Made by a program: the position numbers and the translations under genes
The notes under the pieces: model-generated
Databases searched by the model: none
Told to the model about the DNA's origin: nothing
What the model saw: only the letters and a program-made list of their open reading frames with translations
Assembly: GCA_016786485.1 (NCBI GenBank)
Contig: JAEUWD010000008.1
Coordinates: 1-36,525, forward strand
From: Bacteriovoracaceae bacterium
Lineage (GTDB): Bacteria; Bdellovibrionota; Bacteriovoracia; Bacteriovoracales; Bacteriovoracaceae
Direction of reading: 5' to 3'
DNA length: 36,525 nucleotides
Shown: positions 8,400-23,638 of the stretch, in pieces
Position numbering within the stretch: the stretch's first letter is position 1
Layout: every line of letters starts with the position of its first letter

Positions 8400-9485
8400 T
8401 TACTCCTGTTTTTTTCTTTTTATCGACTCTGCTAACTCGGATTCAATTTCTTCAATCGTGGGTAGAGATGATTTTAAATTCTTAGGCAAGGCACGGGTAA
8501 GCTCATATTCAGAAATACCAATGGGGTGCTCGACACCTCGAAGTGCGTATTCTGCCACGATCTTATTATGATTCTGGCAAAGAATCAGACCAATCGATGG
8601 AGCATCTGCTTTAGCTTTTAATTTATCATCAACCACATTGAGATAAAAATTCATCTTTCCTGCATAGTCCGGCTTGAATTTGCCCTTCTTTAAATCAATA
8701 ACTATGTAGCAACGAAGCTTTAAGTGATAAAATAGTAAATCAACATAAAATTCATTTCCATCAAGTTCTAAGCAATATTGGCGACCAACAAAAGCAAAAC
8801 CTTGACCTAATTCAAGTAAAAATTGCTGGAGATATTTAAGAAGACCTACTTCAAGCTCCCGTTCATGAAATGTATCTTGGAGGGTAAGAAAGTCAAAAAC
8901 ATAGGGGTCTTTAAGTTCTTGTTGAATAAGATCAGACTGGGATGGCGGCAATAGTTCTGCAAAATTAGAAACTGACTTTCCTTGCCGTTGATGGATCCTT
9001 GATTCGATCATTAAGGATAAAGTATTACGACTCCACCCATTTTTTAATATTTGCTGCATGTACCAAATACGAAGGTTATGTTCTTTAATTTTTTCCATGA
9101 GGAGAATGTGATGCCCCCAAGGAATAGACCAAAAAACATTCGACTCTAATTCCGCCACAGCTTGTGGCGGTATTGCAAATTGATCAGGGTAACCCCTGTA
9201 AAAAGCAACCATTCGCTCTAAATTTCGAGTGGAAAATCCCTTTAATTCTGATAACTCTCCAGATAACTCTTTGGCCAAGCGCGGGATGACTTGGGTACCC
9301 CAACCTTCCTTTGTTTGCTTCTGGTCTATCGTTCTTCCAACATCCCAATAAAGACGAATCAGCTCTGAATTAACCGCCAAAACCGCTTTAGCTTGAGACT
9401 GTTGGATGCGGGTTTTTATCTCCTTTAAAAGAGAGTTAAAATCTTTCGTTTCTTTTTTATCGACGGGTTTGTTTTTTACTTTCAT
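8400..9485 (-). CDS. YhcG/DUF1016-family PD-(D/E)XK nuclease domain protein
   Basis: The N-terminal DUF1016 domain (about residues 15-165) contains NSELIRLYWDVGRTI, GWGTQVIPRLAKEL, GFSTRNLERMVAFY and IPWGHHILLMEKI, the usual marks of this family. The C-terminal half is a PD-(D/E)XK nuclease fold: E225, D249 (FYVDLLFYH) and D264-x-K266 (IVIDLKKG) fit the catalytic set. The usual E-x-K is here D-x-K. Relatives are orphan, defence- or mobile-element-linked nucleases often found beside restriction-modification genes; none is here. I chose the ATG at 9485 because AGAGGT sits 7 bases before it. An ATG at 9509 would add 8 residues but has no ribosome site. It lies 51 bases upstream of the GT4 gene. 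An in-frame palindrome encodes residues 106-112. Confidence 0.9.
   Translation of the reverse strand: MKVKNKPVDKKETKDFNSLLKEIKTRIQQSQAKAVLAVNSELIRLYWDVGRTIDQKQTKEGWGTQVIPRLAKELSGELSELKGFSTRNLERMVAFYRGYPDQFAIPPQAVAELESNVFWSIPWGHHILLMEKIKEHNLRIWYMQQILKNGWSRNTLSLMIESRIHQRQGKSVSNFAELLPPSQSDLIQQELKDPYVFDFLTLQDTFHERELEVGLLKYLQQFLLELGQGFAFVGRQYCLELDGNEFYVDLLFYHLKLRCYIVIDLKKGKFKPDYAGKMNFYLNVVDDKLKAKADAPSIGLILCQNHNKIVAEYALRGVEHPIGISEYELTRALPKNLKSSLPTIEEIESELAESIKRKKQE
9148..9174. repeat. In-frame palindrome inside the YhcG/DUF1016 gene
   Basis: Perfect 8-bp arms CCGCCACA (9152-9159) and TGTGGCGG (9163-9170) flank a 3-base centre. Beyond one mismatched pair, three more bases pair on each side (9148-9150 with 9172-9174). 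In the reading frame it encodes PPQAVA, residues 106-111, in the linker just before the conserved IPWGHH block. Confidence 0.85.
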
Positions 9486-9640
9486 AGCTTTACCTCTTTC
9501 TTCGAGCATGCAATTTTTTGATTATTAAGCCACATGCAAGCTATTGATTTAAATAAATCTCAATTCAAGTAATGGAACTTTTTGGCTTCATTTAGGAAAA
9601 AATAGACGAATTAGCCCCTGCTGGCCTAGAATAATGCTCT

Positions 9641-10597
9641 ATGAAAATTAGTGGTTTTACCTTTATTCGAAATGCTGACAAGCTTTATATCCCGGTCAAG
9701 GAATCGATTCTTTCTATCCTTCCGTTGGTAGATGAATTTGTTATCGCTATGGGCGAAAACGATGCGGATGATAAAACGGAAGAACTGATCCGAAGTATTA
9801 ATTCACCAAAAATCAAAATCGTTAACACGATTTGGCCAAAAGAAAAGTACGCTAAAAATACTATCTATGCTCAGCAAACCGATGTGGCCAAAGAGGCTTG
9901 CACCGGTGATTGGCTTTTCTATCTCCAAGGTGATGAAGCCATTCATGAAAATGATTTGAGCCAGATTAGAGCGGCTTGTGAAAAATACCACACAGACACT
10001 GAGGTTGAAGGGTTCTTATTCAAATACCGCCATTTCTGGGGTGATTACGAGCATTATCAAATTTCACACGGATGGTATCCGCGTGAAATTCGTATCATTC
10101 GTAATTTACCGAAGATTCATTCGTGGCGAGATGCTCAATCATTTCGCTATTACGAAGGTGCATTCAACGCCACTCAAGAAGATTACCTAACCAAAGAAGG
10201 GAATCGAAAACTTAAAGTGGTGGAGCTAGATGTTTATGTTTATCACTACGGGTGGGTGCGTCCGCCGGAAAAATTAAAAATTAAGCGGATTCAGTCGACG
10301 GGAACTTATCACGGTAAAGGTTCGACTCAACAACAGGATATCATCACGTCCAATTTTGATTACGGCCCGCTTTCGATGGTTGGTACTTTCAAAGCGACAC
10401 ATCCCAAAACGATGACGCAATGGATGAAGAAGATTCATTGGAAACATGAATTACAAATGACTGGTAAACCATCTAAAGATCGCACGCCTCATAAACACGA
10501 ACGACTCAAATACAAAATTCTCACTTTTATTGAACAAAATATTATTCACCGCCCTATGGGTGAATTTAAAAATTATAAAAAACTATGCAGAAAATAA
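9641..10597 (+). CDS. Glycosyltransferase family 2-like protein
   Basis: Probable GT-A fold inverting glycosyltransferase. It begins KISGFTFIRNADKLYIPVKESI, the N-terminal nucleotide-binding strand of a GT2 subgroup in which the classic PxYN is replaced by FIRN. DEFVIAMGENDADDKTEELI holds the DxxxD-like acids, and GDWLFYLQGDEAIHENDL takes the place of the usual D-x-D metal site, with Asp-Glu in GDEA. The C-terminal third is basic and fits a membrane-facing acceptor region. No ribosome site stands before the ATG. It is the first gene of a three-gene plus-strand run (with the next GT2 and FkbM genes) and overlaps the following gene by 13 bases. The sugar and acceptor are unknown. Confidence 0.85.
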   Translation: MKISGFTFIRNADKLYIPVKESILSILPLVDEFVIAMGENDADDKTEELIRSINSPKIKIVNTIWPKEKYAKNTIYAQQTDVAKEACTGDWLFYLQGDEAIHENDLSQIRAACEKYHTDTEVEGFLFKYRHFWGDYEHYQISHGWYPREIRIIRNLPKIHSWRDAQSFRYYEGAFNATQEDYLTKEGNRKLKVVELDVYVYHYGWVRPPEKLKIKRIQSTGTYHGKGSTQQQDIITSNFDYGPLSMVGTFKATHPKTMTQWMKKIHWKHELQMTGKPSKDRTPHKHERLKYKILTFIEQNIIHRPMGEFKNYKKLCRK

Positions 10598-22037: not shown

Positions 22038-22091
22038 ATTTTTCAAAGTTGAAGCAGATTTGCATCTCTCAGGTTAACCGGAGGATCGCAA

Positions 22092-22616
22092 ATGAATGAA
22101 CTTACTTTGTCACAAATTGAAAAAATGATTTTTATTATTCGCGGTATGCGAGTCATGTTGGATTCAGATCTCGCTAAGCTTTATGGCGTCGATACCAAAC
22201 GTCTTAATGAACAAGTTAAAAGGAATATCGAACGCTTTCCGGGCGATTTTATGTTTCAACCTACTTTCAGTGAGTTAGCTGACTTAAGGTCGCAATTTGC
22301 GACCTTAAACGGAATAACTGCTGGAAATCACATTAGTAAATATCTTCCTTATTTATTCACCGAAAACGGTGTTGCTATGCTTTCTAGCGTTCTCAATAGT
22401 CCAACCGCCATTCAAGTGAACATTTCGATTATGCGGATTTTTACCAGGCACAGAAGTTACTATTTTTTGGAACAACGATTGGAAAATAAAATTCAAAAAC
22501 TAGAACACGACACCACTGGCACTTTTAAAATTGTCTTTGAACGCCTCGATGGAATCGAAGGCCAACCTGAAAACTCAAAAACAAATCGTAAGAAAATTGG
22601 ACTTAAAAATGAATGA
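22092..22616 (+). CDS. ORF6N domain protein, copy 1 of 3
   Basis: The ORF6N domain (a phage- and mobile-element-linked, putatively DNA-binding module related to KilA-N proteins) spans about residues 5-115. It shows MNELTLSQIEKMIFIIRG, VMLDSDLAKLYGVDTKRLNEQVKRN, RFPGDFMFQPTFSEL, LFTENGVAMLSSVLNSPTAI and IMRIFTRHR. A predicted coiled-coil or helical tail follows. Function is not known for the family; roles in phage gene control are suspected. An excellent GGAGG ribosome site stands 7 bases before the ATG. Codons 65-73 contain a perfect palindrome. The stop overlaps the next copy's start by 8 bases (ATGAATGA). No integrase or phage genes surround the cluster. Confidence 0.92.
   Translation: MNELTLSQIEKMIFIIRGMRVMLDSDLAKLYGVDTKRLNEQVKRNIERFPGDFMFQPTFSELADLRSQFATLNGITAGNHISKYLPYLFTENGVAMLSSVLNSPTAIQVNISIMRIFTRHRSYYFLEQRLENKIQKLEHDTTGTFKIVFERLDGIEGQPENSKTNRKKIGLKNE
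22284..22308. repeat. In-frame perfect palindrome, ORF6N copy 1
   Basis: Arms of 12 bp (TTAAGGTCGCAA, 22284-22295, and its reverse complement, 22297-22308) flank a single central T at 22296. It starts exactly at codon 65 and encodes LRSQFATL. Confidence 0.97.
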
Positions 22617-23121
22617 ACTGACCTTATCGCAAATCGAAAAGATGATTTATATCGTTCGTGGACAACGAGTGATGTTGGATTCTGATTTGGCCAAGCTTTA
22701 TGGAGTCGAGACGAGAAGTCTGAACCAAGCCGTAAAAAGAAACCTCAAAAGATTTCCTGAAGACTTCATGTTTCAACTGACATTTCAAGAACTTAGCAAC
22801 TTGAGATCACAAATTGTGATCTCAAGTATGCATGGTGGGACAAGGCATAAAACATTCGCCTTCACAGAAAATGGCGTCGCAATGTTATCGACTGTTTTAA
22901 AATCGGAAGTTGCTATCGAAATCAACATCAGCATCATGCGCATTTTCACACGCCTGAAAAGTTTCACTGTGCTCGAACAAAATCTCAAACAAGAAATCTC
23001 AGAACTCAAAGATAATACCGGACGAACTTTCAAAATCGTTTTCGAACGACTCGATGACCTTGAGGCTACACCTGAAACTCCGAACAAAAATCGTAAAAAA
23101 ATTGGACTTAAAAATGAATGA
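22609..23121 (+). CDS. ORF6N domain protein, copy 2 of 3
   Basis: Paralogue of its two neighbours with the same layout: MNELTLSQIEKMIYIVRG, VMLDSDLAKLYGVETRSLNQAVKRN, RFPEDFMFQLTFQEL, AFTENGVAMLSTVLKSEVAI and IMRIFTRLK, then a helical tail. Length is 170 residues. I start it at the ATG at 22609, because this aligns with the starts of both other copies; the frame runs upstream to 22531 but that part lies inside copy 1. It has no separate ribosome site; the 8-base overlaps at both ends (ATGAATGA) imply translation by coupling. A 114-bp stretch (22596-22709) is identical to copy 3 except for one base. A 14-bp-arm palindrome covers codons 64-73. Confidence 0.92.
   Translation: MNELTLSQIEKMIYIVRGQRVMLDSDLAKLYGVETRSLNQAVKRNLKRFPEDFMFQLTFQELSNLRSQIVISSMHGGTRHKTFAFTENGVAMLSTVLKSEVAIEINISIMRIFTRLKSFTVLEQNLKQEISELKDNTGRTFKIVFERLDDLEATPETPNKNRKKIGLKNE
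22799..22827. repeat. In-frame perfect palindrome, ORF6N copy 2
   Basis: Arms of 14 bp (ACTTGAGATCACAA, 22799-22812, and its reverse complement, 22814-22827) flank a single central A at 22813. The core starts at codon 65 (22801) and encodes LRSQIVISS. Position in the gene is identical to copy 1. Confidence 0.97.
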
Positions 23122-23638
23122 ACTGACCTTATCGCAAATCGAAAAGATAATTTATATCGTTCGTGGACAACGAGTGATGTTGGATTCTGATTTGGCCAAG
23201 CTTTATGGAGTCGAAACGAAAGTGCTCAATCAAGCCGTAAAACGAAATTCAGAGCGATTTCCTAGTGACTTTATGTTTCAACCTACTTTCAGTGAGTTAG
23301 CTTCTCTAAGGTCACAATTTGTGACCTTAGAGAAGTTAACTATTCAAAATCACATGAAATACTCACCTCGATTATTCACTGAAAATGGTGTTGCTATGCT
23401 TTCTTCTGTTCTTAAATCTAAGACTGCAATTCAAATCAATATAGCAATCATGCGAATTTTTACGAGACTCAAAAACTCGATCGCTTTAGAGCATGCCATT
23501 AAAAAAGAAATTTCTGAATTAAGAGAAAATACAGAACGAACTTTCAGGATCATTTTCGAACGCCTGGATGACCTTGAATTACCCTCTCAAACCCCTCTGA
23601 TAAACCCCAAAAAGATCGGTATAAAAACCAAGACTTAA
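23114..23638 (+). CDS. ORF6N domain protein, copy 3 of 3
   Basis: Third paralogue (174 residues): MNELTLSQIEKIIYIVRG, VMLDSDLAKLYGVETKVLNQAVKRN, RFPSDFMFQPTFSEL, LFTENGVAMLSSVLKSKTAI and IMRIFTRLK. The first 34 codons are nearly identical at DNA level to copy 2, whereas 33 bases just before the palindrome (23270-23302) are identical to copy 1, so the gene is a mosaic. The start at 23114 overlaps copy 2's stop by 8 bases. Codons 64-74 carry the longest palindrome of the three, with 17-bp arms. The gene ends 18 bases before metH, with no terminator between them. Confidence 0.92.
   Translation: MNELTLSQIEKIIYIVRGQRVMLDSDLAKLYGVETKVLNQAVKRNSERFPSDFMFQPTFSELASLRSQFVTLEKLTIQNHMKYSPRLFTENGVAMLSSVLKSKTAIQINIAIMRIFTRLKNSIALEHAIKKEISELRENTERTFRIIFERLDDLELPSQTPLINPKKIGIKTKT
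23301..23335. repeat. In-frame perfect palindrome, ORF6N copy 3
   Basis: Arms of 17 bp (CTTCTCTAAGGTCACAA, 23301-23317, and its reverse complement, 23319-23335) flank a single central T at 23318. The core starts at codon 65 (23306) and encodes LRSQFVTLEK. It is the longest of the set. Confidence 0.97.

Follow-up and report, generated by a model that had tools for sequence, protein, structure and literature searches.

Regulation or autoregulation via an operator inside a coding region is known in Escherichia coli from PurR and LacI, where one regulator is paired with one operator sequence, without the family-wide coupling of site and reader described below for DUF1016 genes. An intragenic site bound by the product of its own gene has a precedent: C.Kpn2I is a DNA-binding protein with its site within its own coding region, and the bound protein stalls elongating RNA polymerase, by a mechanism that its authors consider may be widespread in C.Kpn2I-like proteins (PMC6237814). 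For the LacI family, a recognition code has been described in which DNA-binding residues are associated with the bases of the site (PMC2978694). Palindromic DNA also lies in frame within genes in the form of the Rickettsia palindromic elements, which are selfish, dispersed, ∼100–150 nt long, and of several classes (PMC4316617). For YhcG, a 2005 survey of PD-(D/E)XK nucleases listed the N-terminal domain as an unknown helical domain (PMC1189080).

The window analyzed here is the whole 36,525-nucleotide stretch of DNA from a Bacteriovoracaceae bacterium, and it contains the only PF06250 copy in that genome. The gene belongs to the DUF1016/YhcG family, having both the PF17761 N-domain (residues 30–175) and the PF06250 nuclease domain (residues 197–350), and its features are as follows:

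8400–9509, minus strand: DUF1016/YhcG gene, 369 aa (PF17761, E 4e-39; PF06250, E 5e-64)
9148–9174, minus strand: 27-bp in-frame palindrome, proposed own-protein site, reading AATACCGCCACAAGCTGTGGCGGAATT on the gene strand
9192–9290, minus strand: proposed first helix-turn-helix (HTH1), residues 74–106; R95, E98, and R99, where its second helix begins, covary with bases d5–d9 of the palindrome
9003–9080, minus strand: proposed second helix-turn-helix (HTH2), residues 144–169, in which R161 and N162 covary with palindrome bases d2–d3
8460–8921, minus strand: YhcG_C PD-(D/E)XK nuclease domain, with D257 and K274 invariant in 67 homologues

Judging from sequence comparisons, we consider it quite likely that this palindrome is a sequence-specific binding site for the very DUF1016 protein whose gene contains it, read by an N-domain with two helix-turn-helix units, and that autogenous repression is its likeliest use. 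As in a C.Kpn2I-type intragenic operator, the dyad site lies within the reading frame of its own gene; binding and stalling are demonstrated for C.Kpn2I and putative for DUF1016. Unlike DUF1016, C.Kpn2I is a small protein, the controller of a type II restriction system, and the DUF1016 site differs further in lying far inside the frame, at a codon that stays the same across phyla, with a sequence that changes gene by gene and a code that covaries with it. The LacI-family sites derive from local gene regulation, while the DUF1016 site is part of the gene for its own reader.

The preliminary description of this locus reported a palindromic core, CCGCCACA-GCT-TGTGGCGG, and this core is present at 9152–9170; beyond one T-T mismatch, the three further pairs per side that it described (AAT/ATT) extend the symmetry to 9148–9174, and the encoded peptide, IPPQAVAEL, lies a little ahead of the conserved IPWGHH block, also as described. 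A search of the 2.98-Mb genome at up to two mismatches returned this single copy. An 8-bp arm with a 3-nt loop occurs five times in the window against 1.3 expected under a Markov-1 null; taken alone such an arm is weak evidence, and its significance is settled by the homologues. Palindromes with at least 11 of 12 pairs at distances 2–13 from the centre also number five, against 0.32 expected: one in the DUF1016 gene, three in ORF6N genes, and one in a glycosyltransferase-like ORF. The last of these (10061–10089, ATTTCACACGGATGGTATCCGCGTGAAAT) has 11 of 12 pairs and is centred on codon position 3; a Pfam search with the surrounding ORF gave no match, and this palindrome is possibly a chance product.

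The DUF1016 sample comprised 159 loci drawn from relatives, GTDB species genomes, and viral contigs. In almost every one of these aligned loci, which span Proteobacteria, Bacteroidetes, Firmicutes, Cyanobacteria, Planctomycetes, Chlamydiae, Omnitrophota, and one archaeon, the corresponding linker contains a palindrome; a few, L011, L017, and L091, were without a clear one. It is stronger than the best other palindrome of the gene in 131 of the 159 loci and equal to it in 13. Its position is conserved, with the centre on codon position 1 in 136 of 142 distinct linker palindromes and, among genes with a short linker, an identical distance from the centre to the PWxH motif in 84 of 89. The palindromes at this place differ in sequence and keep their symmetry, and are summarized by the consensus AATT-N3-CA-N3-R-S-Y-N3-TG-N3-AATT, in which the N blocks are highly variable yet symmetric. 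Across 127 genes, a mean of 10.8 of 12 positions are paired, vs. 6.05 under synonymous recoding (the same protein, with the codon use of each gene itself) and 6.6 under cross-pairing, and complementarity at distances 2–9 is 87–99% vs. 35–65% under cross-pairing. Homologues with the peptide and no DNA symmetry, which the preliminary description named as the refuting case, are rare: the symmetry exceeds that of 99% of synonymous recodings in 92% of the 127 genes, which encode 118 different nonapeptides at this site. Strong palindromes occur at 0.61 per kb in DUF1016 genes vs. 0.019 in neighbouring ORFs (32-fold), and six of the nine found in neighbours are in ORF6N, RhuM, Bro-N, or DUF1016-type genes, as identified by Pfam match or motifs.

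Background-corrected mutual information between palindrome bases and alignment columns (126 proteins, effective number 108) identified columns 95, 98, 99, 132, 161, and 162 as the top columns that neither lie in nor adjoin the stretch encoding the palindrome, most of them at ∼6–11 standard deviations. Within HTH1, Arg95 goes with C at d7 (80/81), Arg99 with G at d5 (19/20), Tyr99 with TG (66/69), Glu98 with G at d8 (9/9), and Trp98 with AG (19/19); within HTH2, Arg162 goes with G at d2 (32/32), and Arg or Lys161 with G at d3 (59/69). The window gene obeys all five residue-base rules. On a tree built with the linker and contact columns left out, changes in residue and base on the same branch were counted against 2000 null replicates: 17 for 95/d7 (null mean 3.5, maximum 8), 12 for 99/d5 (null 1.4, maximum 5), and 7 for Trp98 (null 0.3, maximum 3). 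The five changes for 161/d3 equal the null maximum and go no higher, and R162/d2 and G132/d2d3, with one same-branch change each, are not above the null in this tree test, so that these two pairs may partly reflect ancestry. When applied to 14 extra loci (12 plasmid or phage genes and two E. coli alleles) that lay outside the alignment and were unscreened for relatedness to the training set, the rules predicted 51 of 67 bases (76%), vs. 36 by majority guessing. Because the letters of the palindrome change along with the residues by which the encoded protein would read DNA, that protein very probably binds its own gene.

An AlphaFold model of moderate confidence (mean pLDDT 69.8, pTM 0.44) places residues 95–99 at the opening of helix 94–106, which is preceded by helix 74–85, and residues 161–162 at the opening of helix 161–169, which is preceded by helix 144–157; the segment encoded by the palindrome (112–122) is predicted to be disordered between the two helix-turn-helix units. 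In a PDB sequence search, DUF1016 had nothing better than a ribosomal protein at E 0.09, which is not a real match, and ORF6N had none; a Foldseek search with the first model returned essentially only nucleases among its best matches.

Extra copies of the arms are found within DUF1016 loci (51, vs. 3 with shuffled arms). Several genes have additional palindromes with their own arms, at two to four per linker, and two (L083 and L115) have one extra same-armed palindrome close to the C-terminus. Same-armed copies also occur ahead of the start codon in L062, L078, and L082, with a related copy in L073; in L078 the upstream order is TATAATGC, then AATTGTGCAGAAACTTTCTGCACAATT, then TAAAAAAGAAGGTG. 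The promoter copy is immediately 3′ of a TATAAT-like box in L062, L073, and L078, which gives only a hint of a possible transcription block, and upstream copies without a clear box occur in L082 and L118. Such promoter copies are present in only ∼5–6 of 127 DUF1016 genes. Three genomes (G041, G085, and G100) each harbor a pair of DUF1016 genes, and the two palindromes within a genome are unlike, which argues that no shared host protein reads all of them.

In E. coli K-12, yhcG has three palindromes of the DUF1016 type, and not all copies fit the rules: the protein has Lys95, yet d7 is C in two of the three. An O157 allele has lost two palindromes and has kept GCCAGAC..GTCTGGC, in agreement with the Lys95 of its protein. 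The protein of strain WP3-S18-ESBL-09 is conserved for the most part, and the stretch that differs takes in the helix, where K95 and R98 give way to R95 and W98, as well as the first palindrome, where d7 is C instead of G. The K-12 protein (L277) also has Arg in place of a Trp that is invariant in 67 aligned homologues, reading PRSTY instead of PWSTY, and Gln in place of a second Trp retained by other E. coli alleles; with these two positions substituted, K-12 YhcG may be impaired.

The preliminary description likened the DUF1016 palindrome to those of the ORF6N genes in the window, and the likeness is borne out, with both being in frame, at a family-specific fixed place, and of varying sequence with the symmetry kept. 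The ORF6N palindromes of the window are:

22284–22308, plus strand: palindrome of ORF6N gene 1 (22092–22616), TTAAGGTCGCAATTTGCGACCTTAA
22799–22827, plus strand: palindrome of ORF6N gene 2 (22609–23121), ACTTGAGATCACAAATTGTGATCTCAAGT
23295–23341, plus strand: palindrome of ORF6N gene 3 (23114–23638), with perfect inner 17-bp arms at 23301–23335

A strong palindrome is present in 78 of 91 ORF6N genes (including these three), and 74 of the 78 are centred on codon position 1. The ORF6N recognition code differs from that of DUF1016: residue 70, in the presumed recognition helix, predicts bases d4d5 with almost no exceptions (TG with Gln, 32/33; CG with Glu, 16/17; GC with Arg, 18/19; GA with Lys, 8/8), with 24 same-branch changes vs. 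a null of 7.4 (maximum 15). A 17-nt pattern of the ORF6N site occurs 30 times in eleven genomes, and 27 of these occurrences are inside ORF6N domains, the other three being beside an ORF6N gene, in an integrase gene, and intergenic. An ORF6N-type site (CTTTGAGATCACAAATTGTGATCTCGAAG) lies at position 1500 of locus L315, in intergenic DNA where no ORF6N domain was reported. In the window, an imperfect 36-nt inverted repeat (22058–22093) lies around the start of ORF6N gene 1 and its ribosome-binding site, and is not of the ORF6N-site type. Other accessory families, in which the preliminary description had proposed to look, also share this arrangement, with RhuM and Bro-N genes having in-frame palindromes at fixed places; a Bro-N subgroup (L266, L267, and L274) has long palindromes of another shape (ACCATTTTCGTGATATCACGAAAATGGT) within the DHF.DV.KM motif. 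All four families match candidate-defence models of PADLOC (DUF1016, PDC-S02; ORF6N and RhuM, PDC-S05; Bro-N, PDC-S13/S04), and on plasmids, DUF1016 genes adjoin type I restriction or methyltransferase genes (L292, L293, and L300).

The symmetry could in principle have arisen with no function, from protein constraint or from mutation bias (template switching in quasi-palindromes), and the codon choice of the usual peptide, VQQAVAQ, is indeed partly palindromic. The excess of 10.8 pairs over the synonymous null of 6.05 refutes this account, as do the viral ORF6N genes L164, L168, and L172, which retain TTATCACAAWTTGTGATAA at the same place despite another reading frame and another peptide (e.g., ELITICDK), and neither constraint nor bias explains covariation with residues outside the palindrome; we regard it as extremely improbable. 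The preliminary description raised a counterpart of the Rickettsia palindromic elements, and a related possibility is that insertions into permissive linkers arose convergently; both are in keeping with an in-frame palindrome in a linker of variable length that at times contains several. The comparison with Rickettsia failed, and a mobile origin is scarcely credible: at ∼27 bp and with one genomic copy, the 9148–9174 palindrome has neither the size nor the dispersal of those elements, its register is constant across phyla, and its gene-specific sequence matches the DNA-reading residues of its own product. Copy number and covariation together refute the mobile-element reading, and the palindrome behaves as a putative binding site, not as an inserted selfish element. 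A stem of such strength would also form in the transcript, where it might govern translation or decay, but retention of the symmetry as an RNA hairpin is very unlikely. Mismatches show no preference for G-T over A-C (28 vs. 33, about equal, in DUF1016; 16 vs. 30 in ORF6N), which indicates that G-U pairing is not in use, on which ground the hairpin was rejected; moreover, the bases covary with helix-turn-helix residues, and the promoter copies span the expected start site, so that the RNA would miss part of one arm.

A further alternative is a self-targeting nuclease: having bound its own gene, the protein would cut that gene or rival copies of it, as a dosage limiter or a means of allele exclusion in mobile DNA. 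The PD-(D/E)XK motif is intact, with D257 and K274 invariant in 67 homologues, which is something that simple autorepression does not need; all four families match candidate-defence models, and the palindromes are gene-specific, like an identity tag. Against this, ORF6N and RhuM share the anatomy and a domain search found no nuclease domain in ORF6N, while cutting an unprotected, intact site in its own gene would be suicidal, with many genes holding two to four such sites. The conserved nuclease keeps self-cutting alive as an explanation, although we consider it unlikely.

For the preferred reading, a binding site serving autogenous repression, we infer that the DUF1016 protein binds its palindrome as a symmetric pair and, by analogy and with less certainty, that binding represses the gene. 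HTH1, with contacts 95, 98, and 99, would read bases 5–9 of each half-site, and HTH2, with contacts 161 and 162, would read bases 2–3, such that the two subunits may cover the 27-bp site. The site would be lodged in a flexible linker between the two units, where the protein may tolerate any peptide that the DNA requires. Protein bound inside the gene would block elongation by RNA polymerase and, in members with a promoter copy, might block initiation as well. With the operator inside the reading frame, control would travel with the mobile gene, and a portable operator of this kind would be well suited to genes that arrive downstream of foreign promoters.

In a search of the open-access literature, no earlier report of such palindromes was found for DUF1016 or ORF6N, and for RhuM the titles of the matches listed looked unrelated. 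As far as that literature shows, three things are new: an in-frame site as a feature of the whole family, the joint diversification of site and reader, and DUF1016_N as a probable two-helix-turn-helix domain. The analysis assigns a proposed function to the YhcG N-terminal domain, which is present in E. coli, and for both ORF6N and DUF1016 it derives from sequence a specificity code that can be tested. It also explains the ORF6N residue pairs S..V, S..A, F..G, and C..G as products of DNA symmetry, and RhuM pairs probably have the same explanation. More tentatively, and with a low probability, DUF1016, ORF6N, RhuM, and Bro-N, as a class of mobile, defence-associated genes, could share a form of self-identification, in which a protein recognizes its own gene, site and reader co-diversify, and cells can distinguish copies or alleles; if so, it could serve to control dosage, to silence competing copies, or, for YhcG, to cut. 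The findings suggest that an operator inside the gene and read by its own product may be a common design of mobile accessory genes, and several of these have no listing other than as candidates for phage defence.
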